A stretch of DNA of 64,000 bases, taken from NCBI GenBank assembly GCA_963855995.1, contig OY979725.1:11388383-11452382 (forward strand). Direction: 5' to 3'. Position numbers and translations under genes: made by a program. Below, piece after piece: positions 39,848 through 63,638 of the stretch. This DNA comes from Muricea muricata (Eukaryota; Cnidaria; Anthozoa; Malacalcyonacea; Plexauridae). The notes below the pieces were generated by a model. The model ran no database searches. It had not been told where the DNA came from and saw nothing but the letters and a program-made list of their open reading frames with translations. Each line of letters opens with the position of its first letter. Position 1 is the first letter of the stretch.

Positions 39848-40664
39848 TTAGTAATAGTTTGCTTTCACCAGACAGGTAAAATGTAATGGTACAATGGTAA
39901 AATGAACTCTGCTGGAAATTTTTCTGAGCTTTATTTTCTTCTCTGAGGTATATAAACGGGCACCTTTCTTTTTGCTGCTCGATTTTTTGTTGGAAGATTC
40001 ATCATCCTTATTTTGCCCAGGATAAACTTCTTGACCATTCTTTATGTGATCAACAATAACATTATTGCGACGGAATGGCGATCCCTTCCCTTTTAGCACA
40101 TTCAACGTTCCGTTTTCGACTGGCTTTTTCTTGCCGCTTGCTTGAATTTCAAATAAGAATGGTCTGATATTGACTTCTAAATTTTTACCATGACCATCGA
40201 TGGTAGCAATGAACACGATGTAGCGGTGCAAACCGAGGTTTGGCATGTTACTCCAGACAGTATGCTCATCTCCTCCGCTTGGTCGAGTTAGACGGAGCCT
40301 GTGATGGGAGTGCCATTGGCCAATATTGCACAAACCATGTTTTTGTGTCAGATATTGGCCTGCCTCTCGCAAATATTCAACATCTTGGAAAAACGATACT
40401 GTGGTTCGGGAACAGTTCTTCCCCGGTCCTAGTACGAACTGGACAACAGCTGTACGACTGTCCATCCATAAGCCAAACAGGTCTCCACCAGTTTCGATAT
40501 TATCTTTTATTTCAACCCATCTCTTAATTTGAGCCAACTCGCCTTCATCGATGTAAAACTGTAAAAGGATTCGACGTACTAACTTGCTCTGTCCTTGACT
40601 CTTGCCTTTGGGCAGGTTTGTTAGAGCTTTGCCGTTGTTTTTTATTTTTGTTTTTACGAGGCAT
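39848..40664 (-). pseudogene. JAMM-A: bacterial-type JAMM/MPN+ metalloprotease-like gene with a 1-nt frameshift
   Basis: The uninterrupted frame from 40537 to 39848 covers nearly the whole JAMM domain: NIETGGDLFGLW (catalytic Glu), VVQFVLGPGKNC, GQWHSHH (metal-binding His-x-His) and PSGGDE (Ser and metal-binding Asp), then LGLHRYIVFIATI. The paralogues have FTVYINEGE immediately upstream. Here the upstream ATG (40664) frame gives a lysine/glutamine-rich start that reaches PFTV and then leaves frame at a run of four A (plus strand 40555-40558), where one base is extra relative to paralogues. This could be a true inactivating frameshift, an assembly error, or a start from an unseen exon. The tail is lysine/serine-rich. 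Divergent from JAMM-B across about 535 bases. Confidence 0.75.
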
Positions 40665-41199
40665 AATAAAGGCTATATCATCGACTAATTTCACAACAGG
40701 ATATATCCGTGCTGGATTTTTCCCAGAACTACTTCAAAATACTCGGAACTCCACGTGTCAAATTATTACCCCCTGTGTGTGATTGTTTTGTTTGACCAAA
40801 CTTTGGGACTAGGGAATAATAATACACTTGTCGAAAATCAAGCCGGAACAAGAACAATATGCTACAATTATAATTAGATAAGAACCTGTTTAGCTAACTT
40901 AAAAAATTTAGGTTCTTATACGCGGGGTTTTCCTGTAATCAATATTACTTTGTAGCATTCTAAAATTAGTCTTCGCTCAGCCAGCCGCCATTGTCATGAG
41001 CTATCAACTCTTGCATGTAAAGCAGTTGACATTCAATCTATGCGATTTTAGTAGGTTAATTTTTACAGGTAACAACATTTCTGTATACAAATACATCGAG
41101 TAAAGTGCCACAAAGTACCTAGAAATTGGTCCTGTCTCGCTCAGTCCCAGGGTTCTTGGTATCACTCCTCGGCCGCACTTTCGTTATGCAGTTACAAAG
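40665..41199. promoter_or_regulatory. Divergent promoter region of JAMM-A and JAMM-B
   Basis: This interval separates head-to-head genes. It contains TTCCCAGAA at 40720-40728, which is TTCTGGGAA on the JAMM-A strand, 56-64 bases before its ATG. It also holds AGAACCTG...AGGTTCTTA words near 40882-40918 and a GGGGTTTTCCTGTA end that resembles the CAGTAAAA-type element end. Confidence 0.5.
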
Positions 41200-41922
41200 A
41201 TGGCATTCTGGAAGTGGGTGAGTAGTGCTGTTTGGGAATACCTCGTTTTCTTAGCGCTACTTATCTACGCACTAATAGCTGACACTTTACCAACATCCTT
41301 ACAAAGTCTTATCAATAGAGTTAGGGAATCAATCTTACCCCTGAGCGATGGGAGAACATTCAAAGCATATATTTACAAAGACGAGCTGAAGAGTATTAGA
41401 AGATGGGTGCGACAGAAAGATAATATAGAAACGGGCGGTGATCTGTTTGGATTATGGTTAGACCGACATAATGCTGTGATTCAGTTTGTGTTGGGTCCTG
41501 GTAAGAACTGTCGCAGAACTAAGACGTCCTTTTACCAAGATACTGACCATCTTGCAAATGTTGGAGGTTACATTACGAAGAATCAGGGCTTATGTAACAT
41601 AGGCCAGTGGCACTCCCATCACAGGCTACGATTACCTTGCCCTAGCGATGGCGATGAAGACACAGTGTGGAACAATATGCCTGCCCTAGGAATGGAACGA
41701 TACATCGTGTTCATTGCAACAATTAGCGACATTGATAAGGTTGACGTCAATTGCTTTCTGTTTGAAATTGAAAATGAAAAGAAGCTTTCGGTTTTACAAG
41801 GAGAAATTTGCGAGTTTGGTGAGGACTCCCCGGTACAAATGTCTCGAGAGTTAACTAACTTGGTAGAATCAGGAAAGGAAATCGAGGACAACACTGATGC
41901 TGTTTTTTTGGACGTGGATTAG
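41200..41922 (+). CDS. JAMM-B: membrane-anchored bacterial-type JAMM metalloprotease-like protein
   Basis: A single exon of 240 residues. The N terminus has a hydrophobic helix (EYLVFLALLIYALIA, about 13-27) without a clear cleavage site, so a signal anchor is likely. The JAMM domain spans about 53-205: ETGG with E77, FVLGPGKNC (about 96-104), H138-S-H140, S149 and D152. The H-x-H-x8-S-x2-D spacing is one residue longer than in classical JAMM (x7) and is shared by every paralogue here. All predicted zinc ligands and the general base are present, so the enzyme should be competent as an isopeptidase on ubiquitin or a ubiquitin-like modifier. Substrate is unknown. The TGGxLxG, GPG and WHSHx combination matches bacterial JAB proteins. 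A poly(A) signal (AATAAA, 42032) follows. Confidence 0.88.
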   Translation: MAFWKWVSSAVWEYLVFLALLIYALIADTLPTSLQSLINRVRESILPLSDGRTFKAYIYKDELKSIRRWVRQKDNIETGGDLFGLWLDRHNAVIQFVLGPGKNCRRTKTSFYQDTDHLANVGGYITKNQGLCNIGQWHSHHRLRLPCPSDGDEDTVWNNMPALGMERYIVFIATISDIDKVDVNCFLFEIENEKKLSVLQGEICEFGEDSPVQMSRELTNLVESGKEIEDNTDAVFLDVD

Positions 41923-42670
41923 AGAAAACATTGTTATTTTCGCTGTGATAGCGTGTACAATATATAGCATTGTGTATACCTTTGCGTATAATGCAGTAGT
42001 GTCTATGTAATATTATAAATCGAATTATATTAATAAACAGGGTACAAGTTGAATTTTGTGCTTTTTTTATGTCAGTGCAAGGTGTTTATTTCTCTTTCGT
42101 TTTCATTTTTTAAAACTTGCTTAGCAATGCATCAATGCAGTTTCCGGCGATATATCAGTTTCAAATAATAACAAACAAATTAATTTCCATTAAGAAATGA
42201 AAGGAAAAATGCAATAATGCACTTCCGCTTATCCTGCATTTACGTAACCATATTCCTGGAACACTATATATATTCAACGAAATGAAACATCGTATCATGA
42301 ACGATGTTCGTTCACGAGAATTTGTTTATTATAAAGAAGTTTGCTTGATGCTGATAAAATTATCAGTCATAAACAAGGATCATATGACAGTCATAACTGA
42401 AATGAAGGATAGCCATTCGGGTCAAAGATCATGCAGCACTTCCAAGTATACAAATAACAATTTCCGGGAATTAAAAAGTCGCATTTACGTGGAAAACTAG
42501 TACTCAGTAAATGAAAGTAAAACAGCACTATTGCCACATTCGAATTCTGGGAAATAGATGCTGAAACAAGTTCTTGGAAAACGAACATCAACATGACAGT
42601 CAATTTGTGACAGCAAATAAAGTAAAACGAAACAAGGCGGTGCACTGCGCCTATTTCGTGTTGTACTAGC
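41923..42670. promoter_or_regulatory. JAMM-B 3' end and JAMM-C upstream region
   Basis: AATAAA at 42032-42037 probably ends JAMM-B. Upstream of JAMM-C lie TTCTGGGAA (42545-42553), a second TTCTTGGAA about 20 bases further on, and AAAACGAAAC, which resembles part of an IRF-type element. Functional assignment is inference. Confidence 0.45.
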
Positions 42671-45500
42671 ATGGCCGGTTCTTGCCATCAACAGGAGTTT
42701 ACTGTGTACATAAACGAAGGAGAGAAACATCAGATCGAGGAATGGGTAAAAAAATGGCCAAATACTGAAACGGGAGGAGATCTGTTTGGAGCATGGAAAG
42801 ATGATCATACCGCTGTGGTTCAATTTGTGTTGGGGCCGGGGAAGGAATGTCGCCGAACAGGCGCATCGTTTTACCAAGATGTAGACTATCTTCGAGATGC
42901 TGGTAGCTACCTCACACAGCAACATGGTTTGTGCAACATTGGGCAATGGCACTCTCATCATCAGCTCGGTTTAACTCGACCAAGTGGAGGAGATGAAAAC
43001 ACTGTATGGAGTAACATGCCTAAGCTTGGTTTGAATCGATATATTGTGTTTATTGCTACGATTACGGGCGGCTCTCGATCATATTATCCCTATAACTATG
43101 GCGATTATTACAGAAGTTCCAGCAACGAAGACCTAGAGGTACATATAAATCCATATCTCTTTGAGATCAAGTATGGGCGAAGAATGGACGTGTTGCCAGG
43201 TTCGTTTAAATACATGAAATACAATTCGCCGTTTCGTTTGAATGAAGCTATTATTAACCAAGTAAGAATTAGGGCTGAGGTTACGAACCTTGTCAAGTAC
43301 TACGAAATTCCAGTGGAAACGAGCCAGAAAAGGCTACGTGAAGGAAACGAAATAGAAGTTGCAGAGCCTAAGACCAAATCGAAACCAAAAGTAAATGAGG
43401 AAGGTAAGTTCAAGCGTTCTCTTCAGCTCCTCATGTAAAACCTCAATATAAATTGCGTCATAATACGCAAGTTGGTAGTAAAAGTAAACGGAAAACGTAT
43501 CAGTTCTCGATTGAAATAGTCGAATTAATCTTAAATTTATATAAGTTCTTAAATGAAGTACCTTATTGTATCATTTTAACATTTCCGCATTGTTTCGATT
43601 GACTAAAACAGCTGGCAACTTTTTTAAAACTTTTTTTACCGCGTGGAGAGCAGGGGGGGGGGGGAGGCGGGGAGCGTAAAGAATAGGAGAAGAGGCAAAT
43701 CATAGACAAAGAAGAGATTGTTTGGAAACTTACTCAACTCATTCACTGCCTAGGTGTCTTTAAAGTTTAGCTCTTTGATCGTTACGTGCTTACCGTAATA
43801 TTTGCTTGGTTATTAACTACACAGCAAAAAATGAACAACCTGTTCTGGCCTGATGAAAACAGCATTGAACAATGTTTTGCTGCCCACATTGTTCAAGGTT
43901 GTCAACAATATTGTTCAACATTGTTACACCTGATTGCAGGCTAGTTCAGGCTCAACAACTTTTTTCAGTATTTTTGACAGCATTGAACAATGTTGGCAGC
44001 AAAACCTTGTTCTAGCCTGTTTTCATCAGCCCAGAACAGGTTGTTCATTTTTGGCTGTGTACTACAATCAGTCATAAATTATATAGGCCTACATAGACCA
44101 CTTAGCCGAGCTAAGTGTGTCATCTGTGACTTTGAAATATATGACATCGTTTAGAACGACTTTGCTACGACAGTTGCGACCAACTAGAAACTATAGGCTT
44201 TGAAAGGGTAATAACTAAGAACGCCTTTTACAGATTTTTCATATCCAGCTTCAATCGAGAGAATTTCAGCTGAAACACACGAGCAGTCCGCCATCTTGGA
44301 TTTCAGGAACCTGCATGTTTACGTCACAAGTGGGATCACGTGACATTTAGTTATTGACAAGCAACGATCGGAACGAAACAGAAACTCGTTTCAGAAACTG
44401 GTTTCTATTTGCTGATTGATATCACATATTAATTAAAATCATTTTGGCCAACTAATGTTTGTCACTTACTTTCCTACCTGAATTTTTCAAGGTTTATCGG
44501 CCTTATCCCACTTATGACGGCATGAAATGAGCTCAAAAATTTATCCAAGATGGCTGACAGCTGACATGTTTGAGTCCAAATGTCTCAAGATAGATATGAG
44601 AAAGGTGTAACACGCTTTGTCGGTTATCCCAAAAGCTCCTTCAATTCAGCAAAGAATACCCTTTAAAGTATCCAAATCATGTACGTTATTACCTGTGGGT
44701 AAATCTAAAAGTTAGTGGGTACTTGCACCACGTTGATTATACTATTATATATGATAATGATCTTTCAATACCTGAATGAGACAAGCAGAAATTCAAGATA
44801 CTTACCATCCACTACAAAAAATCCACGATTATAGAAAAGGTGGCAGATGTACACTTCTCACTAATGCATTGCGGTCAAAAATTTAAAAAAAACCGAATGG
44901 ATGTTTTTTGAACGATATGCGTAAGGCAGCAGGCCAATTTGTTAATTGTGCTAAAATTACTCATCATTACATGATATTGTGTCATTCAGTAATTGTGTTA
45001 TTCAGTAATTTCTACTTGACGTTAACAATGCATTCTGGGAAAATGTGCATGTCACCATCTTTTCTATAATCGTGGATTGAAACGGGAATAAAAACTACAT
45101 CGAGTATCTTCATTGTTTCTTAGTATCTTTCCCAAGCAGTGGTTTTCTTTATGCATGTAGAAAAATAAATTTATAATACTTTTAAGCGTTGTTTTTATAG
45201 CAGGTTGACTGCTAGTATTTAACACTTGTTTTTAAAAAATTAAGTTTTCATTTTAACAGGAGAATATTCGGAGCGAACTGAAGATGCAGAGCATGACAGT
45301 GATGTTAGTGATCAAAATGAACAAAGTGGACAGTCGAAAATCCAACTGGAACGTGTTGCCAATGATGATGTTTCAGATGAAGAGCGTGTCGTCAGTCCGA
45401 CAACAGATGAAGAAGAATCCAAACAAAAACAACCTGAGACTACGGCCACAGTGAACGACAAAATATCAACAAGCGAAGGAGATAGAATCGAACAAGAAAG
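42671..45500. repeat. Segmental duplication, copy 1 (partner 51100-53570)
   Basis: Exon 1, intron 1 and the beginning of exon 2 match 51100-53570 closely, including intronic sequence (for example both introns carry GATTATxxTATTATATAT). Homology begins at the ATG and not before it. Copy 1 carries an extra insertion (about 43790-44095) that holds a MITE. The duplication is recent enough that non-coding sequence still aligns. Confidence 0.9.
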
Positions 45501-46736
45501 TTTAAAGAGCAAAACAGAAAAAGAAAATGTCATCATTACAAGTGACAATAACAAAGATGAAGTAAAATCTGATACTGGTGGCGGTATCCAAGACGAAAAG
45601 AAAGACCAGCCAAATAATCCACAAGAAAACGATTCTGACAACCATCTGCTTGCAGAAGATGGCCCGGATGACAAGAGTAAGTCCAAGTCAACAACATCAT
45701 ATCAAGATCCCAAATTAAAACAAGATGGAAACAACGATGACGACGACAATGGTACAGTGTTTGCATGCGAGAGTTCCGTAAAGGACACTGACGAACATCT
45801 ACGGGAAACTTCACAGACTGACTTGGACATACACAGAACTCATGGTGAATCTGACGCAAGTGTCGTGCATCTTGGTTATGGTTCAGTAGAAGAACAGAAT
45901 GGACTATCAAGTATTGCGCATGGAAATTTCGACCGCAATTTGACAAATGATACAAAGCTCACCACCATGGAAAGGCAAGAAGAGCAACACCAATCTGATA
46001 CTACGAACACGAATGGCATCCAAGCGTCAAATAGCGATACACAGCAAGACATTGAACAGGACCCTTCCCAAAATAACTCAGGAAGAATGCACGAAAATGA
46101 AACAGATCAAGGTAAAGCTGGTGACACTGACGATCAACGCGAACATTCAAGTATTCGGAATGAAGATGGTGAAAATGACTTCAAATACGACTCAGATAAA
46201 AGATGCAAAGGTATAACCGCTGCAGTTAACGGGGGACTGAATAATGCCGCCAATGGTTCTGATAAAGAAATCATGCCGAAGATTGAAGATCAGAACACAA
46301 ATGAAACAAATAGGGAATCGACAGTTAAAGGTAATGTTACACAAATGTAAAAGAAAATCCATACCTTACTGAAAACCCTTACTTTACCCAAGATTTGAAA
46401 GACCATAACCATGACGCTATATTTAATTTAGATCCAAAGGATAACCTTCTTGAAGATATGGAAGTTGACAACTTGAATCCTTCTTCAGAAGATAAAGATA
46501 CAGATTTCAATGAAGATCTTGGTATACAAGAGCATACAGAGGATCGAAGCCAAAACAGCATGATGACGTTACCAAATACGATAAGCGATACAGCTGTTAA
46601 AGCGACGGAGGGACTCGAAGAACAGAGTGAACAGCCAATACAAATGTCAGAAACCCTTGAGTTGGAAGAGGTAGATGAGATATTTAATAGTATTACAAAC
46701 GAATTTAAGCCACGGTCAAACGAGGATGAGAGTTAA
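42671..46736 (+). CDS. JAMM-C: JAMM domain with long acidic tail (isoform ending in exon 3a)
   Basis: Exons are 42671-43403, 45260-46330 and 46393-46736. All junctions are phase 1 (donors GTAAGT and GTAATG; acceptors TTTTAACAG and TTTACCCAAG), giving 715 residues. Exon 1 encodes the JAMM domain: FTVYINEGE, ETGG with E33, FVLGPGKEC, H94-S-H96, S105, D108, and SPFRLNEAI. A glycine/tyrosine/serine loop (GGSRSYYPYNYGDYY) is inserted after VFIATI. The domain looks catalytically complete. Exons 2-3a encode a hydrophilic Asp/Glu/Asn/Gln-rich region, probably disordered. The 62-base second intron is short but restores frame exactly. AATAAA at 46880 could end this isoform. An alternative last exon is at 47334-49204. 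Exon 1, intron 1 and the start of exon 2 are duplicated in JAMM-D. Confidence 0.85.
43818..44061. mobile_element. MITE in JAMM-C intron 1, absent from the JAMM-D copy
   Basis: The 244-base element has ends TACACAGCAAAAAATGAACA and the inverted TGTTCATTTTTGGCTGTGTA, about 45 bases of arm, with inner TTGAACAATGTT words. JAMM-D intron 1 passes from GATCGTTACGTATAGACTG straight on, so the insertion postdates the duplication or was lost in the other copy. Confidence 0.82.
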
Positions 46737-47333
46737 TGTGAGTTGATATTCTCACTCGCGCTTGACTACCAATAACTAGTACGAATTTTCAGGTGACAAT
46801 CTCATTGGTCAAGATTTACTGTTCTCTGAAGTGATAGTCACTGGCAAGTGGCTATAGCTTTTTTGCTTTTTTATACAGCAATAAATTTTAAGTGAATTGT
46901 GTTGTTTCTTACTTGCAAACGTCTGAAATTTATACTACAACAATTAGTTGCCTCAGGCTCGGTGATTACAAGACTATATTTATTTCCTCTTCGGCTCATT
47001 GAATATAGGCTTGTAATCACCTCGCCTTCGGCGACTATCAATAATCATCAACTTTTATCAACTTGAGCCAGTTCAAATTTTGAGAGTTGTTTTGAACAGT
47101 TGCATGAGAGTTTAACTTGTAAACAATTATAAAACGATTATTTTAAGAATAAAGTGCAAAAAAGTTTAGTCGGAATTTGGGTAAATATGATAATCTTTGT
47201 AGATTATTAAAATAGTAGATTTCAATTTAACTCATATCTTCGTTTGACTTGGGGCACGACACACAAGAGTCTTGTGTAAAACTCCGCTTCTCAGGTCTCA
47301 TCAACTCTCATTCTCCTTTGACCTAGGCTTCAG
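46737..47333. other. Intron between JAMM-C alternative terminal exons
   Basis: The interval contains a poly(A) signal (46880-46885) and a palindromic segment (GGTGATTACAAG ... CTTGTAATCACC, about 46960-47020). It ends with a pyrimidine-rich acceptor region (CTCCTTTGACCTAGGCTTCAG) that is also conserved before 56975. Confidence 0.55.
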
Positions 47334-49204
47334 AAACAACAACAGTTATTGACAACAACGATAATAAAATAATGTCGCAAGAAGAGCTGAATGAAAGCGA
47401 CAAGAAACAGAGCTTCGATGAAGGTTCGCATTCCATCACAAAACTTGATGGACATTTAAAAAACGACCATGCAAACAATGACGACGCCATAGCAAATGCC
47501 TCAGATCCAGAGGAGACCTTTGATAAGACACGACGTGAAAATATGGACGTCGAAGACCAGAATTCTTCTGCACAAAGTAAAGCAACGGGTATTGATAGAA
47601 GACGTGGTACAGATGAGGATACAGAGGATCAAAACAGTATGAAGAAGAACAGTATGAGAAGCGATGCAGCGGTTAAACCGATGGAGGGATTCGAAGAACA
47701 GAGCGACCAACCAATACAAAAGTCCGAAAACCAGTCAAAAACACCCGAGTGGGGAGAGGTAGACGACATATTCAAAACAATTACAAAAGAATTAGAAACA
47801 TCAGACGTTGATAACAACAAAAGTAATAACAATGGTGATTTAATTGCAAAGCAAGAATCTTCAGTGATAAATGACCGTAGAGAGAATGTATGTAAAAACA
47901 TTATGGACGCCCAGACAGATGATATTCTCACGAATTCCCCGCCGAGTCCAGCAACTGAAGGGAACGATGGTTCAAATAAGGAAGGAAATGAATTTCTTCA
48001 TGGTGTAGATGCAGAAGATCAAGATTTGAAAGGCATGACAACATTGCAAAATGTGAGAAGTGGTATAACCACGGTTGAACATAAAAAGAGACTGGAAAAG
48101 AAGAGTGAACACATTCAAAAGTCAGAAAATCAACCAAAAACGCCTGAGTGGGGAGAAATATTAAATGGTATATTCAACGAAAACATAGATAATCTGACGA
48201 TTATCCAACCGAGTGCAGCAACTGGTGGGACTGGTCAGTCAAATAAGAAAACAGATGAAGAAGACCCGCCAAGCAATACAGCAGGTTTAATCGATGAAGA
48301 GAATTTTGGAAAAAAGATCACAAAGAATGGTAGAGATGACGTTTACAAGACTTCAGAGTCCAGTACAGCAGTAGCAAGTCGTTCCCGCAGCATTTTTGAT
48401 CCATTTCCACAGAAACTGTTTGACGACGGTTGTCATTCATCTGACGATAAAGTACCCAATGCGGAAGCGGTGGAAACTGCGGTTGTGGAATCGATTATGC
48501 CCGAAAGTACCCAGCAGTTGGAAAGTAGCAATGATAAGGAAAACATTCAAGAGCAAGGACAGAAGGAAAAGGTAACAAAGAAATTGGAAGAAAAGCAAGA
48601 TACTATTGAAGTTAAAGACGATGCCAAAAATGTTAATCCAAAAGAAATAGCTGGCCAATCTAAACAAGCTAATGATAGTATGGATGTCATAAAAGAACTG
48701 GGAAGTGACGGTGGTCAAGCGGAGGAAAACGACAAGAAAGAAACATCGAAAGAGAAAAACAAGGAAGAAAACATCAATAAAGTTGGAAAATCACAGAAAG
48801 ATGAAGGTAATGATGGTTGTTTCCCTTTTTTGACTAAAAGAAAGAAAAGACGGAAATCAAAAGCCAAAGAAAAGAGAGATGAAAGTGATGATAGAAAGGA
48901 AAGGAAAGAAATCAAAAGTCAAAAGAAAGGAAAGAAATCAAAAGCCAAAGAAAAGAAAGATGAAAGTGATGATGGAAAAGAATGGAAAGAAATCAAAAGT
49001 GAAAAGAAAGGAAAGAAATCAAAAGCCAAAGAAAAGAAAGAAGAAAGTGATGATGGAAAAGGAAGCAAAGGAATCGAAAGTCAAAAGAAAGGAAAGAAAT
49101 CAAAAACCAAAGAAAAGAAAGATGAAACTGATGATGGAAAAAAAGGGAAAGAAAACAAAAGTGAAAAGAAAGGAAAGAAATCAAAAGCCAACAAAAAGAA
49201 CTGA
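47334..49204 (+). CDS. JAMM-C alternative 3' exon (3b): acidic, repetitive, lysine-rich tail
   Basis: The exon is open in the phase needed to join exon 2 (46330), giving an isoform of 1224 residues. It encodes a charged, probably disordered region. A block of about 40 residues (QPIQKSENQSKTPEWGEVDD) occurs twice inside it and in weaker form in exon 3a (QPIQMSETLELEEVDE), so exons 3a and 3b arose by internal duplication. A lone hydrophobic patch, GCFPFLTKRKKRR, precedes the lysine repeats at the end. No catalytic domain is visible. That the exon belongs to JAMM-C is inferred from phase, position and the homologous arrangement at JAMM-D (56975-57540). Confidence 0.65.
48855..49195 (+). repeat. 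In-frame 81-bp tandem repeat coding a 27-residue lysine-rich unit
   Basis: Four to five copies of KSKAKEKKDESDDGKEWKEI-type units with the period GKKSKAKEKK. The period is a multiple of three, so copy-number change keeps the frame. Confidence 0.88.
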
Positions 49205-49314
49205 TAGTTATGAATGTCAAAAGGGAAGAACAAAAATAGAAATACATTAATACTGAAAATCGTCTAAGCATTTTCACGTCGTAAGAAACAACAATGAAAG
49301 GTCAGAAACATAAT

Positions 49315-49438
49315 AGAGAGATTTAGCAAAATGGGAGGTGAAAATGGCGTGGTCTCATCCACACATGGAAATATGACGCCATTTCCACCCCATTTCCACG
49401 TCGACTTTGACGCCGCGTCGTGTTTGCTAAATCTCTCT
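49315..49438. mobile_element. Short MITE with AGAGAGATTTAGCA inverted ends
   Basis: The left end AGAGAGATTTAGCA and the right end TGCTAAATCTCTCT are inverted. The interior shares GTGAAAATGGCGTGG with the hairpin at 703-831, suggesting the same family. Confidence 0.75.
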
Positions 49439-49526
49439 ACTATGTACTCTAAATAGCACAGTAAGTAATATGGTACGTACAAACAATGATGGTCAACATT
49501 TTGTAGTATATCACAGTATTATACAA

Positions 49527-51013: not shown

Positions 51014-51099
51014 AACCACTTCCTGGTAATGCATACAAATATTATAACTCTTGAAAATAAATAAAAAAACGCAGTTCGCCATTGCTATATGAGCAAACA

Positions 51100-53570
51100 A
51101 TGGCCGCTTCTCGCCATCAACAGAGGTTTACTGTGTACATAAACGAAGGAGAGAAACATCAGATCGAGGAATGGGTAAAAATATGGCCAAATACTCAAAC
51201 GGGAGGAGATCTGTTTGGAGCATTGATTGATGATCATACGGCTGTGGTTCAATTTGTGTTGGGGCCGGGGAGGGATTGTCGCCGAACAGGCGCATCGTTT
51301 TACCAAAATGTCGACTATCTTCGAGATGCTGGTAGCTACCTCACACAGCAACATGGTTTGTGCAACATTGGGGAATGGCACTCTCATCATCAGCTCGGTT
51401 TAACTCGACCAAGTGGAGGAGATGAAAACACTGTATGGAGTAACATGCCTAAGCTTGGTTTGAATCGATTTATTGTGTTTATTGCTACCATTACGGGTGG
51501 CTCTCGATCATATTATCCCTATAACTATGGCGATTATTACGGAAGTTCCAGCAACGAAAACCTAAAGGTACATATAAATCCATATCTCTTTGAGATCAAA
51601 AATGGACGCAGAATGGGCGTGTTGCACGGTTCGTTTAAATACATGAAATACAACTCGCCGTTTCGTTTGAATGAAGCTATTACTAACAAAGTAACAATTG
51701 GAGCTGAGGTTATGAACTCTGTCAAGGACTACGAAATTCAAGTGGAAACGAGCCAGAAAAGGCTACGTGAAGGAAACGAAATAGAAGCTGTAAAGCCTAA
51801 GACCAAATCGAAACCAAAAGTAAATGAGGAAGGTAAGTTCAAGCGTTCTCTGCAGCTCCTCATGTAAAACCTCAACATAAATTGCGTCACGAGACGCAAG
51901 TTGGTAATAGAAGTAAACGGAAAACGTATCAGCTCTTATCTGAAATAGTCGAATTAATCATAAACTTAGATAAGCTCCTAAATGAAGTATCGTTTAACAT
52001 TTCCGCATTTTTTAAAGCGGTTTTTTATCGCGGGGAGGGGGGGGGGATGAATAGGAGAAGAGGCAAATCACAGTCAAAAGAAGAGATTGTTTGGAAACGC
52101 ACTCAACTTACTCATCTCTTTGATCGTTACGTATAGACTGCTTAGTCGAGCTAAGTGTGTTATCTGTGACTTCGACTATATCACATCGTTAAGAATGACT
52201 TTGGTACGACAGTTATGACCAAATAGAAACTATAGGCTTTTAAAGTGTAATAACTAACAACGCCTTTTACAGATTTTTCATATCTAGCTTCACTCGAGAG
52301 AATTTCAGCTGAAGCACACGAGCAGTCCGCCATCTTGGATTTTCAAGAACATGCATGTTTACGTCACAAGTGGGATCACGTGACATTTAGTTATTGACAA
52401 GCAACGATCAGAACGAATCAGAAATTCGTTTCAGAAACTCGTTCTATTTGCTACTAGATATCACATATTGAGTAAAAGCATTTTGGTCAAATGTTTGTTC
52501 CTTACTTTCTTACGAGTAATTTTTCGAGGCTTATCTCACTTATGACGTCATGTAATGAACTCAAAAATGTATCCAAGATAGCGGACAGCTGACATGTTTG
52601 AATCCAAATGTCTCGAGAGTCAAGCGAGATATGCAAGGAAAAATCTGTAACATGCTTTGTCAGTTATCCCAAAAGCTCCTTCAATTCAGCAAAGAATACC
52701 CTTTAAAGTTTCCAAATCATGTACGTTATTACCTAATGGGTAAATCTAAAAGTTAGTGGTTACTTGCACCACGTTGATTATAATATTATATATCAATATA
52801 TGATAATGATCTTTCAATACAGGAATGAGACAAGCAGAAATTCAAGATACTGTCCATCCACCACAAAAAATCCACGATTATGGAAAAGGTGGCAGATGTA
52901 CATTTCCCACTAATGCATTGCGGTCAAAAATCTGAACAAAACGAATGGATGTTTGTTGAACGTAAGACAGGAGGCCAATTTGCTAATTGTGCTAAAATTA
53001 CTCATCATTAAATAATATTGTGTAATTCAGTAATTGTGTTATTCAGTAATTTCTACTTGATGTAGGCAATGCATTCTGGGAAAATGTACATGCCACCATC
53101 TTTTCTATAATCGTGGATTGAGACGGGAATAAAAACTACATCGAGTTTCTTCAATGTTTGTTAGTATCTTCCCCAAGCAGTGATTTTCTTCACGCATGTT
53201 GAAAAAAAAATTATAATACTTTTACGCGTTGTTTTCATTGCGGGTAGACTGCTAGTATTTAACACTTGTTTTTGAAAAATTAAGTTTTCATTTTAACAGG
53301 AGAATATTCGGAGCGAACTGAAGATGCAGAGCATGATAGCAATGTTAGTGGTCAAAATGAACAAAATGGACAGTCGAAAACTCAACTGGGACGTGTTGCC
53401 AATGATGATGCTCCACATGAAGAGCGTGTCGTCAATCTGACAACAAATGAAGAAGAATCCAAAGAAACACAACCTGAGACTGCGGGTACAGTGAACGACA
53501 AAATATCAACAAGCGAAGGAGATGGAATCGAACAAGAAAGTTTAAAGGGAAAAACAGAAAAAGAGAATGT
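51100..53570. repeat. Segmental duplication, copy 2 (partner 42671-45500)
   Basis: See 42671-45500. After the first part of exon 2 the two copies diverge: JAMM-D continues toward a RING domain that JAMM-C lacks. Confidence 0.9.
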
Positions 53571-56011
53571 CATCCTTATATATACAAGCGACAATTTACC
53601 AGACATCCACCAGCCAAGTACTCTACAAGAAGATCGTTCTCACATTAATGGTCAGGCAGAAGGTAAATCGGTTGACCCAACACTCGCAACACATGAAAAC
53701 GAGGGAGCAGCTGATGAAGACATGAACATGGATACCGGTGCATCCTCAACAGGCAACATACCGAAAGAAAATGAACAAGACCGTTCTTCCAATAACTCCA
53801 ATAGCGAAGTTTCAAACACTGATGAGAAGGACAAAGGCCAACTTAAAGAAGACGTTGTAACACCAGCTGATGACGATTTGCAATACGATCAAGGCACGCA
53901 GTCAAGTACTCAACACGATGTTCCCACTGAGAATCTGCAAGAAACTTCACAGACTTCAGAAAAACATGAAAATAACGAAGATGAAGTAACATTTGATACT
54001 GGTGATGTTATCCAAGAGGAAAAAAGAACACAAACAGATTGTCTTGATAAAGAGGAGCAGGCAGAGAATCAAAATCAGAAAAGACAGGATATACCAAGCT
54101 TATTTAAGTGCTCAATTTGCTTGAAAACATCTGACGACCCACGTACACTGCATTGTCTGCATTCCTTTTGCAAAAAATGTTTAGAGAATTTCGTGGCTGG
54201 AAACCGCGAGGATAAACTACGCTGTCCTGCATGCCGTTGTCAGTTCACGGTCAATAAAGAAGGTAACTACTACTTTCACTTTACAATATTTATTATAAAG
54301 TTATTTATATGCCCGACGATGAAATATATATAGAACTAAATAAATTCACAAGCTATTTAGGTGAATAAACCAGGCTTAACGATGGTGAGATATTATGTTT
54401 TATTATATGGCTTTGAAGAATCCTGCATTCTGATTGGTCGACGTGCGGTCCGTAAAAACCGTATTAGGACCGTGGTCCGTAAATTTCCGTATTCGGATCG
54501 GGCTTTTTCCCAGTGTTTTTAATCGCACTTTTTATTGCTTGAAATATACTTATTAACGAAATTAATGTTTTACTGATATGTTTGAAAACTTTATGTTTAA
54601 AAATTAAAGTTTGACTTTTTTGTATTCTAATTAACGAAACCACGATCGACGACATTTAAGTGCAAAATGCCACACTAACTCAGAAAATGACTGCGAGCCA
54701 TATAATAAACAGTTTATTGACCTTGCTTGTTTGGTCTGTACCGTGAAATATCGGACTTCGGTTTTTTTACTAAAAAACCTTAGTCCGATAGGCCTATTTC
54801 ACGGTACAAACCTCACGCTCGGTCAATAATCCTTTAAATACATCGGCTTGTGGAATTATCACCCCCAACTACTAAATATGCTGGGGCTGCTAGATGACAC
54901 CAGGGATATTGAACTCGTATGCGATAAAAACTGACTTGCCAAACTTTAATATGGGTTTTACCCGTTTACATGTTTAAAATGGGGTTTTTTTTAAAAAAAA
55001 TTTTGTGGACAGGGCTATTCAATTTTCGTATAACCGACCTCAGGGAAAGAATTCTTTCAGTGGATGTACCATATCCTAATATATAAATATTATTTCATAG
55101 GAGCGACAGGGATGACTAAGAACCATTTCATCTGTAGTATGGTCGAAGTGTTGTCCATACAACATCAACATAAATGTATCCCTTGCTCTCATTGTCAACA
55201 AACATCTGCAGGTCGTTGTGTAACATGTGAACTCTTCATGTGTGAGAAATGTATACAGTCGCACAATGGATACCTTGGATTTAAAGATCACGTTGTCCTG
55301 ACAGTGGAAGAACTATCAAAGCCCGAGAATCAATCGAAGATAAAGAAAATCTCGAAATGTCAAGAACATCCGGAGAAAAAAGTTGAGTATTACTGCGAGA
55401 TATGCGACGAATTGTTGTGCAGTTATTGTAGGCATTGTGTTGATGACAAACAACATAAATTTTCGCGTCTTGAAGAAGCCGCACAAAATAAACGAAAGGA
55501 TCTAAAGACAAATCGTGAAATCTTGGAGAAAAGCGTTGCGGTGAGTGAACAAGAAACGATTATTTTAAAAGAAAATCGTAAAACAATAGATTACAACTTT
55601 GATGAAGCACAGAGTGTTATAAATGAAAGAAAAGAACATTTGTTAAGTAAACTCGAGGAAAAATTGCGAGAGAAGACAAATTCCATGATAGACGACGCAC
55701 GGAGAGTCTGTGAACGTAAAACAAGGAATATCGACACGAGTATCGAGGAAAGAGAAATGTTTTCGAGTCGTATGAAATCTTCTACGGATATGGTTCGTAG
55801 TTTGCTTGAAAATGGAAATGATGAAGAAATTGTTCGTTCTTGTCAGTTCGTTCAAGAAAATGTTAATGGCGCAAAGGAAACTCGCGAATCACTTGCTGAA
55901 GATTGTGTTGTTCTGTCTTGGAGTTCTGATGAAATTGACACCATGCTTCTCGCAGAGATTAAAGATATTATAGAAGATAAAGGTACCGTAGCCATACACG
56001 CATCACTATAG
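51100..56011 (+). CDS. JAMM-D: JAMM-TRIM fusion (JAMM, acidic linker, RING, two B-boxes, coiled coil)
   Basis: Exons are 51100-51832, 53300-54262 and 55101-56011. Both junctions are phase 1 (donors GAAG|GTAAGT and GAAG|GTAACT; acceptors TTTTAACAG and ATTTCATAG), giving 868 residues. Residues 10-215 are the JAMM domain with H94-S-H96, S105 and D108 kept, but the catalytic glutamate is glutamine (Q33, codon CAA; GAA in JAMM-C). Residues about 245-510 are an acidic, disordered linker. Residues 515-556 form a C3HC4 RING (CSIC, C530-x-H532, CKKC, CPAC). Residues about 590-630 are a B-box 1-like finger, about 645-690 a B-box 2 (CQEH, CEIC, CSYC, H-x2-H region), then a coiled coil to about 800. No SPRY or NHL domain follows. 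This is a TRIM-class E3 architecture joined to a deubiquitinase fold that is probably inactive and may bind a ubiquitin-like modifier. Confidence 0.83.
54736..54818. repeat. Hairpin in JAMM-D intron 2
   Basis: TGTACCGTGAAATATCGGAC and an imperfect inverse ending GCCTATTTCACGGTACA flank a T/A-rich loop. It is probably the remnant of a foldback element that begins around 54410 (CTGATTGGTCGACGTGCGGT). Confidence 0.6.
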
Positions 56012-57540: not shown

Positions 57541-58984
57541 ATTTACCGTTAGACATAAACATAACATAACATAATTAAAACTGTTTATTAAGTACGTTAA
57601 CGGGTATTAATGGATATGTATTGAAAGTAAACACTGTGATATGTATGAACAGGAAATTCAATGCTGATAAAATAACGATTAACATTTTTAGGTTATCAGT
57701 ATGATACATAAAAATACTGACCGAGACTTGCATGTAAGATGACACTCTGATATATGAGAACAATTTAAAGTAGACTTGATGTGAAATTATTATAATGATT
57801 ATTGGAGAAAAAAAATATGGATGACTCACAGCCGCGCGTTGCATGCGTCGAATATATATATTTAACGGGAAATGTAGCAAAGCCAAAAAACAAAACCAAC
57901 TACTTTGCTGCCATTAGACCAGAAATAAAAGTGGGTTTGTGTGATATTTAAGTCATTTTTAGACGATTTTGCTATATATACTTGAAAAACGTTTGTCGTT
58001 ATCGACTTTTTTGCAAGCAGTAAAATGTCCAGTAAAAGTTAAGCCTGGTTTTCAGTTGTCCCAACTGCCGCAGCATTCATAGACGGATTCTTTTGTGAGA
58101 TTTGTTCATATTAGTCATTACTAAGGTTGATACTCATCACACAGTTCATTTTTTCTCTGTCTTGCTTTTTAACCGAAAGTGTATCTCTTAATGTTATATC
58201 ATATTAAACATTGACTTTAACACTAAATGTTTATGCGAATGAGTGTTTAACAAATCAGGTATATGTTAATATATAGTCTTTGGATAGTACAAATGTCACA
58301 CAAAATGCCCAAAGTCGTATTTTTGTTATTCTAGGGTTAAGTTATATATGGGTGGATTTCGACGCATCCCAGTGTATTAATAATCTAGTTTGTGATAAAT
58401 GAAAACTTTGTTATGTTGATGAGTATAATGATTCAACAATGAAATGTCTAATGTAATAGACTGAAATACAAATAAAGTAATAACTTCAATTGCTTATCCC
58501 AGTTTAGTTTTGTTGATCTAACTCACGAGTAAGGGATGGCAGAAATTAAATGCCTCAACAAGGTAATTCAATTGAGAAAATATCCTAGAGTTGGTCAACT
58601 TTTCTGCAGCTACTGCATGTTCTATAAAGTTTAGTATCTCTTAATCTCGGCAGACCAATCCCATGTGCAGCATTTTTTGTATCTGGCAAATTAGTGCTCC
58701 CAAGATTATTGACAACACATACTTTCCGCGTTTCGAGTAAAGGCTTGATTTGTAAGGCTCAGAGAAAAGCCTTCGCTTGAAAACCTGTTTCATTTTTAGG
58801 TAATCCGCAATCCCGCCCACGCAAAACCGCATCCCGCGTGCGTTTCTAATTCTGGGAAAAACCCTTCCCGGTAATGTTTGCATCATAATTCTTAAAATCA
58901 AAGAAAACAGCAAGAGCAATTTCATGCCTTGAGTCTGCTGAACAATTACTGCCATTCACTATTGCTTAAGAAAATAACATCGAT
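57541..58984. promoter_or_regulatory. Spacer with the JAMM-E promoter
   Basis: The end (58739-58890) resembles the JAMM-D upstream region. TTCTGGGAA is at 58850-58858, 127 bases before the JAMM-E ATG. A half-copy of the GCCTGGTTT MITE family begins near 58043. No gene is seen. Confidence 0.5.
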
Positions 58985-61900
58985 ATGGGTTTCAAAGTTT
59001 ACATCAACGAAGGCGAAAGATATCAAATACGTGACTGGGTATTGAATGACAAAGTTCAAAATGTAGAAACCGGCGGAGACCTGTTTGGATTATGGCTCGA
59101 CGAGCAAACAGCTGTCGTTCAGTTCGTGCTAGGCCCCGGTGAAAATTGTCGTCGGACAGCGACATCTTTTTTCCAGGTAAGTTTTCTATTCTCTCAGCAA
59201 TGCCTGGTTAGAAGAGCGTGTTTTGTTTCCTCTAGAAGATTGCTGTTCAACCTGCGCGTGGACGAGGACTATGAGCCAGATTTACATGACGCTTTTAGAG
59301 AATTATTAAAAGTTTATGTTGCTTCATATCAGAATCGCGAAAATTGTATAATGCATGAACTTGGACTGGTAAACACGCATAAAGAATAAAACATAATTCA
59401 AAGATTCGCATCTTGAAACTCCGGCACGGATTAAAACAAGACGAGAATGAGTTTGTGATATTTCGATTTTAAACAAAATCATCGTCAGACAAACTAAATT
59501 CTAAAATTATAATATAATACATGATCACGTGTTACAAAGAAATTTGTCGGTAAGAGTCTGCTTACTGGGCAGGGAAAGGTGTAAGAAGTGTTAGAAAGCG
59601 ATTAAGAGAACAGGATTAGCTCTTCACTGGCTTTGAGGCCAGATTTAAGAGAAGGGAAAGGAACTTTATGTATAGAGCTTCAAGGAATAAGAGAAAGTTT
59701 TAGGGTCGAGATGCATGTAAAGGTTTCTGTAGGAGTTTTATTATCATCACGTGCACGACGTAGGCTGATGATATGTTCATTATGTTGCACGTACCCACAG
59801 TTGTTGAAGTGTCGTCCAATCGCACTTTTGTCTGGTTTGTTACGTTCGGAGAGTCGTTTCTGTGTGCATCGTTAAGTTTGGCCAATGTAGGATTTCCAAC
59901 AGCCTTGAAAGTTACTTCATATACAATTTTAGACTTTTGGAATTTTGTCTTTCTTGGGCAAGAAATACGACAATTTTTTGGTGTTGTAAATGACGATAAA
60001 ATTAACCGAAAGATTTAGATTACGCTGTAGTTTCTTTAGGCATTTCTTGTCTAAACTTTCTCCTTGACTCCTAAAGTCATGGACACTACATGCTACATTC
60101 CTCTAGTATTACCATAATATTAGCACACACTTTTAGGCTTTAGTCGTGGGAACGAAGCAATGTTATTCTAGTAGAAAATTATCAGTATTAAGTCCATGCT
60201 ATAATAATTTAGTCTCCCCCGCCCTCAATAAGTTTGCTTGTGGATAATGACGGCGCAAGTCTCTCAATCAAATTCGAAGAGACTTGTTAGAGGAATTTGA
60301 GCTTTTTTAAAGGAATTTTCTTGCCAATTAAGGGACCGTTCATTATTTATTAGACGGAGGGGGATGGGTGATTTTCATATTGACACAACTTAAAATTTTA
60401 GGTCCCCAGATTGGTTAGCAACATATTCTAAGCCCCCCCCCCCCCTCCCCCTTCGAAGATTAACTGATAATATTTGTGAATAGAAAGTACCTTAAATAAT
60501 AGAAAGTATTTAAAAAAGGCATTTCTCCACGAGGCAGCTACTCTGCCACTGCAAGCTGTTGTCACAGCTAGAGATGTGAACAAGCACAAAGGCAACAATG
60601 AAGCATTCTGTAGTCAATATAGTGACAATGATTAAGGTCCCTTCCATATTCATGTTTGAACGGATTGACCCCCCCCCCCACTCCTTCCTGAAAATTTCAG
60701 ATCCCCCCATTTTATCACCCGTCCCCTCCCCTCCCATATATAATGAACCGTCCTTAATTTGCAATGGCTTTGACAAACTCTTTAAAACTCTATTATAAAC
60801 ATTATGACCTAAAAATGAATTCAAACGAACATCTCATCCAGTTCTAGATTACAGATTAGTGAATATTGTTTTAAGCAATCAAATGAGGAAGGGTCAAACA
60901 AATTTTAAGAAATCCCACTTAAATTAAGAGTTGTTGATGAAAGCCGTCCCCCTTCAACCTTCAACTCAAATAAAATTACAATCAACTGTATATGCAGTGT
61001 TTGTTTTTTAATTTTAACAGGACGTGGACTACCTGCGTGAAGCTGGAACGTATTTGACTGAAAAACATGGCCTTTGCAATATAGGCCAGTGGCATTCTCA
61101 TCATAGAATTAATCTATTCGAACCAAGTGCGGGAGATGAGGACACTGTATGGAGTAACATGCCGAAGTTGGGTTTGGATAGATATATTGTTTTTATTGCA
61201 AATATAATTGATATAGACAATGTTACAATTGAATGTTTTTTGTTTCAAACAAATACGTCAACGCCTCGGGTTAAACATGGAAAAATTCGGGATCTTCACG
61301 GAAACAGTCCATTACGTTTGAACGAAACCATTTTGCAGCACATTCACAGAGGAGCTGAGAGCTTTAATCATATAACAATATTTAGCGAGGCGAAGAAGCA
61401 CAAACGTGGCAAGGGAGTGAGCAAAAATCGCGATGTCAATACAGATAATGGTATGAGAACTGACTTCGCTAATTACACAGGACGTGGTTCCAGCAAACAA
61501 GAAGTAGATAGAAACCATGGTAAAGAGTTGGTTAAGGTAAAAAGCTTTGAACTACCTGTTTCCAACACCGGTACTACACTGAGAAGTCCTGATAACTTTG
61601 GGAACAAAACTTTAACCGATCAAGCATCAAGAAGCAGCTATCAACAATTTACAAGTGATTTAAATCACACTGTCTTCAAGGCAAGTATAAACAGAGTTAA
61701 CAGCCCTACAGAGCCGAATTTTACGTTAACGAAGAGAGAAGATGAAGCACAACATGCCTACCCGAATTTGCCTAGCCATTTTCACGAATCAGATAATCGC
61801 CAAAAATTAGAACCAACACGCAATACATTTGTACAAGCTCATGTAAATACTAAAAGACCGCGCAGTGGCCAGAAATGTCCTCACATACAAGCACAGGTGG

Positions 61901-62184
61901 TGATCACACAACAACCTATAAACAGACGAAGCTTTTATGATAATCTTCCTGAAACAAATCTAACACCAATGGATGTAGACAAAATTCAAACAACTGATCA
62001 TGGGGATGAAACAACCACGCCAGATACTCCCTCGGGAACAATACATGAAAAAGATGTACCGTCGGTAGATGAAGACGATGACGGTACGGGTTGGTTATGT
62101 TGGTGCTTTAGCAAGATGACGATAAGTGGCTGCACAACATATTCCTGCAGCAATGTTAAAACTTCCCAATGTAACAATCGATAG
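58985..62184 (+). CDS. JAMM-E: JAMM metalloprotease-like protein with long hydrophilic and Cys-rich tail
   Basis: Exons are 58985-59176 and 61021-62184. The junction is phase 0 (CAG|GTAAGT; TTTTAACAG|GAC), giving 451 residues. The intron interrupts the JAMM domain itself after SFFQ, unlike the other paralogues, where the domain is in one exon. Catalytic residues are complete: E28 (ETGG), H89-S-H91, S100, D103. The conserved extension HGNSPLRLNETILQHI follows. From about residue 170 the tail is basic/polar and probably disordered. The last 35 residues are cysteine-rich (GWLCWCFSKMTISGCTTYSC), a possible lipidation or metal-binding end. A deconjugase role is likely; substrate unknown. Convergent with the E2-like gene 1 kb downstream. 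Poly(A) signal at 62648. Confidence 0.87.
59430..60060 (-). mobile_element. Decayed Penelope-like element fragment (GIY-YIG endonuclease end) in JAMM-E intron
   Basis: Read on the minus strand from about 60050 downward, conceptual translation gives FLPKKDKIPKSKIVYEV, then SYIGQT (stop) R, QKRLSER, PDKSAIGRHFNNCGYV and EHIISLRRA. This is the GIY-YIG pattern found at the C terminus of Penelope-like retroelements, broken by stops and a frameshift. The reverse transcriptase part was not seen. Confidence 0.7.
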
Positions 62185-63206
62185 CACACACCACATTGCA
62201 TAGAGCATTACAATATGCATAATTTACATTTAGTAGTAGTGATATTGATGGGTAGGAAGGAATCCTGCCTCTCATTATTGGGTATATGTATATGATATAA
62301 CAAAATACCCCACAAACCTGCCGCCACAGTCTATTTCATCCATGGAGATTGAAACAGAATTTAGTGATAAGTCTTTGAGGTGTCCTTTGTGACTATATAT
62401 CGTTTCTGTGTCTATACGTCATTGAGCACTTCTTAAAACGAAACTCTTTCATGGTTATGTATAATATACAATCAAATATTTTAAAAGTGTTCTTACATAT
62501 ATGTCTTTCTATAGGAATGGATATTTTTACAAGACTTATTCCAGTTATAACCAAATATAATGATATTCACGGCAATCACTATGTTTGCTAAGCAAAAACT
62601 AATTTGATGCCAGCTTGACATTAGTACCATTTCGAAAAGAATATATGAATAAATGTAAGTGTGCGATTCAATTTATAGTTACTCGCACCATCGACTATTA
62701 CCCACATGGATGAGATTGCCAGGGGGAGGGGGTGCAAATTAGGGGTGGGGTAAGGGTGTTACGCCCCCAAAATTTCAAATATTGCTGAAAGTCGGTTCTA
62801 AAAATAATTGTGGAAGTACAAAAAGTTAGTGATTAAACAGGCAACAATTGCAATTTTCTTCTAAAAATAACAAATTTGCAAAGATTCTAGCGGAAATCAA
62901 TGCTCAAATCATGGGAAATGGCCTTTCCAGAGCTCAAGGTCCAGAGCCCTCGAACCTCCCATAAAGCTCGATTATGTGTTAGCTAGCAACCCCACAATCA
63001 CAAGCGTACACAATTAAGAAGTCGGTTCCAGAAGATCGCTACAGTCTACATGACATGAAGACTTACCTAAATACATAAGCAAGTACATAGAAAAGCGAAA
63101 CCAAATCAGCATTGCAAAGTTCCAGTCATGATTATCTAAGCAATTATGTAAAATAATTAATTCTTTTCAATGCTACAACTGTATATAAAGCAATAAAATA
63201 TTGATG
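62185..63206. other. Convergent spacer between JAMM-E and the E2-like gene
   Basis: Contains AATAAA at 62648 and a G-rich run near 62718. No gene is supported. Confidence 0.5.
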
Positions 63207-63638
63207 TTATTGATTGATTTGCATATCTCGTAAGAAATTATCCAGTGGCTTCGAAGTTCGAAGATGTGCTTCGTACGCCTCTAGCCATAAACGTCCCTTC
63301 AACAATACTTGATATAAGGTATTTTCAGAGCTCCAATTTGATACACGGTAATGGCAAATACGCACAAAGCCATCCCGTCGTTTCAGCGTATGAGTTTGGC
63401 CATTGTTTTCCCAGTTCGGCATTGGTTTCGGAGACTGTGCTACAACCATGTCTGGCACGCTGTTCGGGAAATCATCTGCCAAATAGACTCGTAAACAATA
63501 TTCATTATCGTTGTTTGTTGTCATTCGTACTTCCACTTTCGTTTGCCCTTGAAGCCATGTTACTTTGCCAGGGAAGTACGTGTTCAGTATGTCACGTTCA
63601 ACCAAGATTCGGTGAAGTTGGACACGAGTCCAAGGCAT
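63207..63638 (-). CDS. Bacterial-type E2 (UBC-fold) ubiquitin-conjugating-like enzyme
   Basis: A single exon of 143 residues, about the size of a minimal UBC domain. The order of elements fits an E2: N-terminal helix (MPWTRVQLHRILVERDIL), beta strands with YCLRVYLADDFPNSVPDMVV in the place of the usual YPFxPPxV segment, H83 at the HPN position, then GFVRICHY with C95 as the candidate catalytic cysteine, and NWSSENTL matching the WSPxxTI segment after it. The C-terminal helix WLEAYEAHLRTSKPLDNFL is typical of E2 proteins in bacterial ubiquitin-like operons and not of eukaryotic E2s. It would carry a thioester-linked modifier from an E1. The neighbouring JAMM cluster and RING domain suggest a shared pathway. 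No intron, consistent with transfer from a prokaryote. Confidence 0.85.
   Translation of the reverse strand: MPWTRVQLHRILVERDILNTYFPGKVTWLQGQTKVEVRMTTNNDNEYCLRVYLADDFPNSVPDMVVAQSPKPMPNWENNGQTHTLKRRDGFVRICHYRVSNWSSENTLYQVLLKGRLWLEAYEAHLRTSKPLDNFLRDMQINQ

Follow-up and report, generated by a model that had tools for sequence, protein, structure and literature searches.

Bacterial ubiquitination-like systems of several kinds have been described. In type II cyclic oligonucleotide-based anti-phage signalling systems (CBASS), Cap2 forms a thioester with the C-terminal glycine of a cGAS-like enzyme, which is attached to lysines, and Cap3 removes it again (PMC10097602). Iyer et al. (2006) distinguished the bacterial operon types 6a-6e (PMC1779556), and the Bub operons (Ye et al. 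2026, Gong et al. 2025) represent another ubiquitination-like family (PMC13373217). This study concerns a 64-kb stretch of the genome of the anthozoan Muricea muricata, referred to below as the window (C10:11388383-11452382, where C10 denotes the 13.9-Mb contig OY979725.1), which carries five JAMM (JAB-type) isopeptidase-like genes and one gene for an E2-like protein. The original prediction, made from the letters of the window alone, had taken these for a candidate animal ubiquitin-like module of prokaryotic ancestry. All six genes are real and lie where they had been placed, and the proposed ancestry is supported, since a search of the 453-Mb assembly (74 contigs) revealed an E1 gene and a candidate small partner, and the animal proteins are nested within bacteria on phylogenetic trees.

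We consider that a bacterial cassette of JAB, E2, SMALL and E1 genes, closest to its cyanobacterial versions, was probably acquired by an ancestor of this animal and domesticated there; SMALL is the name used here for a short conserved protein of the bacterial cassettes. This reading, to which we assign a probability of about two in three, is proposed because all four proteins have homologues in the bacterial cassette, their genes are linked, the E1 gene and one of the JAMM genes (J5) contain introns, and the animal sequences are nested in the trees. To our knowledge, transfers of immune parts from bacteria to eukaryotes have mostly been described as single proteins. Unlike these, the E1, E2, isopeptidase and small partner all appear to have been transferred here, and they are still linked; in a 2026 preprint on amoeba TIR genes, the locus is described as lacking any further part of a bacterial operon (PMC13142454). 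Going by titles and abstracts, the papers searched, which left most of the subscription literature outside, included no description of a comparable cassette in an animal.

E1 gene and small partner

The original prediction had stated that neither an E1 nor a modifier is visible, which holds for the window only, and had advised a search of the same genome for a non-canonical E1. When the E1 of a Bradyrhizobium plasmid operon was compared with the animal genome, a single strong place was found, C10:11487464-11488876 (E 2.1e-42, 44% identity), about 34-36 kb past the window end, inside the JAMM/E2 region and adjoining a JAMM gene at C10:11485051-11485500. The next matches of this search (28% and 26% identity) we take to be the canonical MOCS3 and UBA2, and the cassette E1 appears to be single-copy as far as found. 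It is predicted to comprise three exons with GT-AG borders and to encode 452 aa, the first junction being set by homology and less sure. The protein is a ThiF-type E1 that shares its N-terminal region and two Cys pairs with the cyanobacterial E1s, keeps the invariant cassette residues, lies near other cassette genes and is 57% identical to the E1 of Spirulina.

The candidate modifier follows the E1. A model built from five cyanobacterial SMALL sequences alone, run against 5,623 open reading frames (ORFs) from the fetched animal loci, detected SMALL at C10:11490511-11490726 with an E value of 8e-13. This gene lies about 2 kb past the E1, so that both are located about 34-38 kb beyond the window end, and a JAMM gene, E1 and SMALL all fall within 6 kb on C10. 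Three more animal copies occur on contig C11 among E2 genes, away from E1. With a model free of animal sequence, one of them, in the E2 array, had an E value of 6e-5 and another only 0.071; better scores for the C11 copies came from a model holding animal sequence and a tiny search set. One of the C11 copies was added by the genome search. SMALL has expanded to about four copies, which is a lower bound. A fifth candidate, at C10:10616785 (E 0.0027), was not among the matches of the SMALL profile and was therefore set aside.

The bacterial cassette

On plasmids, the top match of the animal E1, E2 and JAMM alike was the same Bradyrhizobium operon, with E values of 1e-11 for E2 and JAMM and a score of 162 bits for E1, the next organism reaching 89. 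This operon encodes JAB, E2, E1 (ThiF), a shortened CD-NTase, a Cap4-like SAVED nuclease and a TIR protein. When bacterial genomes were scanned with the JAMM alignment, 48 loci were obtained, the best of them in cyanobacteria at 40-48% identity; together with the Bradyrhizobium plasmid and one viral contig they make up the 50 bacterial loci considered here. JAB, E2 and E1 occur together in 46 of the 50, and the other four are cut by contig ends. The first scan of bacterial genomes had used the E2 alignment and was without result, as the single peptide pattern in it fitted only the animal copies; against viral contigs the same alignment gave four pattern matches and no relative. A search of phages gave no match.

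The cyanobacterial cassette (Hormoscilla, Microcoleus, Prochloron and others; loci L050-L059 except L052) has the same four proteins and motifs as the animal one, with identities to the animal proteins of up to 57% for E1, 44-52% for E2 (50-52% in several cyanobacteria) and 40-48% for JAMM. SMALL is encoded there by a gene for 65-69 aa between E2 and E1, or is fused to E1. The animal cassette differs in the exons of E1, the dozens of E2 and JAMM genes, the CaaX-like or hydrophobic protein ends and an ORF on contig C6 with several JAMM domains. An NTPase gene, which we take to be STAND-like, was present in seven of the nine cyanobacterial-type loci (L050, L051, L053, L055, L057, L058, L059), mostly upstream and on the opposite strand; its product could act as a sensor.

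Cap4-like genes were found near the cassette in 14 bacterial loci: in L080, L084-L086, L088-L095, L097 and L023 (the Cap4-like SAVED nuclease gene, often with a CD-NTase gene, follows the cassette). This branch would be a form of CBASS in which E1 and E2 are encoded separately. The nine CD-NTases found next to cassettes of the Bradyrhizobium type have LFG in common near the end, where SMALL has GF; the last residues vary in both, as would be expected if the tails are trimmed, or else as a point against the analogy with Cap2 substrates.

Comparison with known conjugation systems

Like type II CBASS, the cassette appears to bring E1, E2 and JAB together in one pathway acting on a protein tail, without a classical ubiquitin-like modifier (Ubl) (PMC10097602), and CD-NTase and Cap4-like nuclease genes follow one of its bacterial branches. 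However, Cap2 is an E2-E1 fusion, whereas animal and bacterial cassettes have one ORF for E2 and another for E1; SMALL is present in the cyanobacterial and animal versions, next to which no CD-NTase was found; and the cassette E2 matches no PADLOC model. The animal ORFs that were read included no CD-NTase, no search aimed at CD-NTases or cGLRs having been made in the genome.

The bacterial ISG15-like (Bil) operons also have separate E2, JAB and E1 genes, but their E1, BilD, combines an inactive and an active adenylation domain with a Cys domain (PMC11354881), whereas one ThiF match and no second was obtained for the cassette E1s scanned. A possible further difference is that no beta-grasp Ubl was found in the cassette, a beta-grasp protein not having been sought elsewhere. 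Nearest in content is type 6d, listed for cyanobacteria, with separate JAB, E1 and E2 and a small protein (PMC1779556). The latter is described as a beta-grasp protein with a conserved C-terminal Gly, whereas SMALL in the bacterial cases seen ends with GFF plus 0-5 residues, and the 6d JAB is described with an N-terminal domain (PMC1779556), where the cyanobacterial cassette JABs have a C-terminal one. The bacterial cassette may be identical with the Bub operons. It is neither Bil nor standard type II CBASS. Of the likeness to type II CBASS and Bil claimed for the window genes, what stands is that they belong to a bacterial conjugation cassette, one branch of which is joined to CBASS genes.

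Phylogenetic position and origin

On the E1 trees, which held 43 and 42 of the 46 bacterial E1 loci after short, frameshifted or long-branch rows were left out, the closest companions of the animal E1 are nine cyanobacteria and Actinoplanes (98/93 with 42 loci), a group enclosed by bacterial nodes supported at 100/98. The placing was the same on the tree with 43 loci, which had two canonical E1s of the same animal as an outgroup, and the approximately unbiased test did not reject the animal E1 as sister of the cyanobacteria alone (p 0.19). The JAMM tree, built from the 50 bacterial loci together with 15 of the 20 animal loci and four window genes, carries a long-branch warning; it unites the 19 animal rows in one clade (SH-aLRT 98), joined by the same cyanobacteria and Actinoplanes as on the E1 trees (91). 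The E2 tree, for which one of the 48 bacterial loci and two of the 20 animal loci were left out, shows the 18 animal rows as one clade (SH-aLRT 95) within a larger one (SH-aLRT 99) that includes 28 bacterial rows, with no one group standing nearest; the values given as SH-aLRT are from quick trees with this support only. Copies of all three animal proteins are thus nested inside bacterial diversity; phylogenies were among the checks that the original prediction had proposed. A single acquisition of the whole cassette fits the trees best, from a donor that was cyanobacteria-like and is not fixed more closely. Locus L089, from a cyanobacterial metagenome-assembled genome, groups with the Bradyrhizobium type.

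What speaks for contamination or symbiont DNA is that the donor-like relatives are bacteria, some of which, to judge from their record titles, come from marine invertebrates (Prochloron didemni, Hormoscilla). This explanation is largely refuted and very improbable: the genes lie on long contigs (13.9 Mb for C10) with animal-type forkhead-like and TRIM-like ORFs nearby, the GC content of the window is uniform (0.35-0.40), E1 and J5 have GT-AG introns, and copies are spread over contigs C3, C6, C8, C10, C11 and C14. The window ORFs 12787-13749 (-) and 31611-32429 (+) are those that we take, by reading of the translation, to be forkhead-like.

Profile searches bear on whether the genes could be canonical animal UBE2 and JAMM genes that have diverged and merely look bacterial. 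For the four JAMM genes of the window that are single ORFs, Prok-JAB was the sole Pfam family at E <0.01, each match being under the curated cut-off, and a chance-level match to DUF3873 was the only other one. PADLOC JAB models matched them with E values of 2.8e-11 to 1.1e-13, and NCBIfam gave 6A-MBL cap2_3, far under its cut-off; neither piece of J5 had a Pfam match. The window E2 alone had no match in Pfam, PADLOC, NCBIfam or PDB, but a cyanobacterial E2 relative and the family profiles matched RWD/UBC-fold proteins weakly (best E about 0.002), the UQ_con match of this relative having an E value of only 0.066. The UBC/RWD and JAMM folds are common to both worlds, which is what lends a canonical origin its plausibility. 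Yet at E values up to 1 no match to UQ_con was found for the window E2 and none to the eukaryotic JAB/MPN family for the JAMM ORFs, as the prokaryotic assignment in the original prediction implied; moreover, the animal proteins are 48-57% identical to bacterial partners of one operon and their copies are nested in bacterial trees. A canonical origin is refuted unless the trees are badly misled.

Expansion and motif retention

Genome searches gave 41 matches for E2 and 52 for JAMM, counts that represent exon matches and are lower bounds. E2 forms arrays at C10:11451592-11464386, C11:2412694-2449128 and C6:3283930-3288903, with singles on C10 and C14. JAMM forms clusters at C10:11428416-11542681, C6:3291462-3327626, C10:9583204-9625352 and on C3 and C8, with singles on C10. 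The end of the C6 E2 array is about 3 kb from the C6 JAMM cluster. Plain chance was rejected as an explanation for this nearness: two of the eight E2 clusters have a JAMM cluster at a distance of 10 kb or less, against a genome-wide expectation of 0.010 (P 6e-5), and three of eight within 150 kb (genome-wide placement, P 1e-5). Placement on the same contig left a weaker excess, with P values of 0.005 (10 kb), 0.02 (50 kb) and 0.009 (150 kb). The test used eight clusters of each kind, with start points hand-listed after merging pieces (34 of the 41 E2 and 49 of the 52 JAMM matches), and assumed 20 Mb for contigs other than C10. Pfam Prok-JAB itself gave two matches in the whole genome, one of them a cassette JAMM and the other presumably a MYSM1-like gene. 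The genome also has one eroded match to the GFP family, with red fluorescent proteins and chromoproteins of the DsRed kind as its best PDB relatives, in keeping with a coral-like animal.

The E2 Cys motif is present in all 20 animal loci studied. The animal E2 is a separate gene with the H..C-H..W and WxEAYExH patterns of the cassette E2s, and residues invariant in a 35-row alignment include R9, E13, H82, C94, W101, K113, W117, E119 and H124. Likewise, the animal JAMM belongs to the cassette JAB type (ETGGDLFG/WHSHH family): 25 columns are invariant in 11 rows, Bradyrhizobium among them, and 15 of 20 animal loci have the full motif, two others being partial exons without that stretch. Ratios of nonsynonymous to synonymous substitution (dN/dS) of 0.07-0.18 in four E2 pairs suggest that E2 paralogues are under purifying selection; the window E2 and L004 gave no usable dS. 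One animal JAMM, L042, retains the C-terminal domain of the cyanobacterial JABs (E 4.7e-6).

Eight of the 20 E2s, from at least three lineages, have a CaaX-like Cys four residues from the end (L005, L006, L007, L008, L012, L015, L017, L022; boxes CLLF, CSLC, CLLC, CASQ and CVVL), which suggests lipid anchoring, and four of 20 JAMM ORFs have a strongly hydrophobic segment. Unusual architectures also occur. A 1768-aa open frame at C6:3324195-3327803 (L026, L028, L029) contains three tandem JAMM domains with acidic linkers. At C14:2419242-2420042, a 318-aa open frame has two E2-like stretches with about 32% identity to the window E2, and in L021 (C10:280724) an E2 forms part of a 425-aa frame whose long C terminus is rich in proline and of low complexity.

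SMALL and the proposed pathway

SMALL was detected in 25 of the 50 bacterial loci at E <1e-3 with a model that included animal sequence. An alignment of 17 rows has seven invariant residues, which form the pattern LxFxPxT..P..GF. A CD-NTase lies beside nine of the 50 loci, a lower bound drawn from ORFs of >=120 aa among the first three neighbours, and in none of the 50 together with SMALL (Fisher P 0.0016, uncorrected for kinship); it is as if SMALL took the place of the protein whose tail is used by Cap2-type enzymes. FFG-type tails like that of SMALL also end the E1s of L054, L055, L059 and L066 (DDGFFG, DDNFFG, AAFFGG). Many E1s lack such a tail, and the likeness is a suggestion only.

By analogy with ubiquitin and with Cap2 and Cap3 of type II CBASS, the order of events would be as follows. 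A JAMM protein would trim the C-terminal tail of SMALL, and E1 would then adenylate the trimmed tail and pass SMALL to the Cys of one of many E2s, which would join it to targets; JAMMs would undo the joining. SMALL would thus be the conjugated tag. E1, as far as found, has stayed single, whereas the E2 and JAMM genes have spread both as tandem copies and to several contigs; the CaaX-like ends or hydrophobic segments in many of their variants suggest that some of the work may be at membranes. The weakest step is the purpose, which would likely be defence against invading microbes as in the CBASS-joined bacterial kin, a role suggested because of the bacterial neighbours (Cap4-like genes, STAND-like NTPase).

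Ordinary ubiquitin may thus not be the only tagging pathway of this animal, and SMALL is a candidate for a new kind of tag. Were the pathway active, it would show that an animal can take over a complete post-translational tagging pathway, which then diversifies in the way that ubiquitin diversified in early eukaryotes. That the animal has a second complete conjugation system from bacteria, with its own E1, a large repertoire of E2s and isopeptidases and a tag that is not a beta-grasp protein, serving innate immunity or symbiont control, is tentative, and we would put it somewhat short of even odds. On that reading a whole bacterial conjugation operon would have been domesticated in a metazoan, with a tag family not described before.

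The main rival accepts a bacterial, active cassette but regards SMALL as a subunit or docking domain of E1, the conjugated tail being supplied by E1 itself or by a host protein. Three cyanobacterial loci (L054, L055, L059) have an in-frame fusion of SMALL to the N terminus of E1, a SMALL-like stretch seems, by eye and unscored, to open the Bradyrhizobium-type E1s, some E1s carry the SMALL-like tails DDGFFG or DDNFFG, and the CD-NTase would supply the tail in the branch joined to CBASS genes. Nevertheless, the tandem SMALL units of L063 and L079 resemble polyubiquitin-like precursors, and three animal copies stand among the C11 E2 genes, far from E1. We regard this alternative as unlikely, though it deserves more weight than the other rivals.

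Several observations weigh against a domesticated cassette with SMALL as its tag. The SMALL-E1 fusions fit an E1 subunit too, bacterial SMALL has no fixed C-terminal Gly, and the SMALL proteins had no Pfam match and none to beta-grasp proteins. The mutual exclusion of SMALL and CD-NTase follows clades, so that its Fisher P value is not independent evidence. Some copies look decayed, with stops in three of the 20 E2 matches and Gln or Gly for the Glu in three of the 20 JAMMs; dN/dS is 0.21-0.78 in four JAMM pairs, and the E2-JAMM linkage within contigs is modest.

Genes of the window

The features of the window are listed in Table 1. The five JAMM genes that had been predicted are all present, with two corrections: J5 consists of two exons, interrupted by a GTAAGT...AACAG intron with clean splice sites, and J4 reads QTGGDLFG, with Gln for the catalytic Glu. 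J4 is possibly inactive, and not all five window JAMMs look active.

Table 1. Features of the window; positions are counted from its first letter
Feature	Position	Strand	Remarks
JAMM J1 (L027)	39848-40672	-	JAB of the bacterial cassette type; ETGG..WHSHH..SGGD intact
JAMM J2 (L036)	41104-41922	+	motif intact; N-terminal hydrophobic segment SAVWEYLVFLALLIYALIA
JAMM J3 (L024)	42626-43438	+	motif intact; 34.7% identity to the Bradyrhizobium JAB, E 1e-11
Acidic ORF	45244-46350	+	part of the TRIM-like duplicate situated about 8.04 kb upstream; neither RING nor any other domain detected
JAMM J4 (L025)	51061-51867	+	recent copy derived from J3; Glu to Gln in the JAMM motif
RING ORF of TRIM-like gene	53284-54333	+	between J4 and J5; origin not in the bacterial cassette
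B-box/coiled-coil ORF	55034-56011	+	same TRIM-like gene as the RING ORF
JAMM J5, coding exon 1	58970-59176	+	coordinate is the ORF start, Met inside; ends SFFQ, then GTAAGT
JAMM J5, coding exon 2	61021-62184	+	AACAG directly before; WHSHH; long, acidic/low-complexity C terminus with Cys
E2-like gene, 143 aa	63207-63638	-	HTL..RICHY motif; opens the tandem E2 array C10:11451592-11464386, which runs past the window

The statement that no unrelated gene lies between the JAMM and E2 genes proved wrong, since the RING and B-box ORFs of a TRIM-like gene and the acidic ORF of its copy are situated among them. The nearest relatives of the B-box ORF in the genome, at C10:11466133 (73%) and C10:11480654 (50%), are in the same region as the window. 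The RING protein is a possible E3 partner, and its co-duplication with the JAMM genes, along with these neighbouring TRIM relatives, agrees with a further reading in which the bacterial genes were rewired to ordinary ubiquitin, the host E1 charging the E2s, TRIM-like proteins serving as E3s and the JAMMs as deubiquitinases. However, a dedicated E1 has been retained with its invariant cassette residues, two Cys pairs and 57% identity, and TRIM genes are common in the genome (74 matches), so that their nearness to JAMM genes may be chance; such rewiring is improbable.

The TRIM-like RING/B-box genes have been duplicated along with JAMM genes within the window (53284-56011 and 45244-49204). J3 and its TRIM-like neighbour form a duplicated unit of about 8 kb, in which the blocks found are 90-95% identical.

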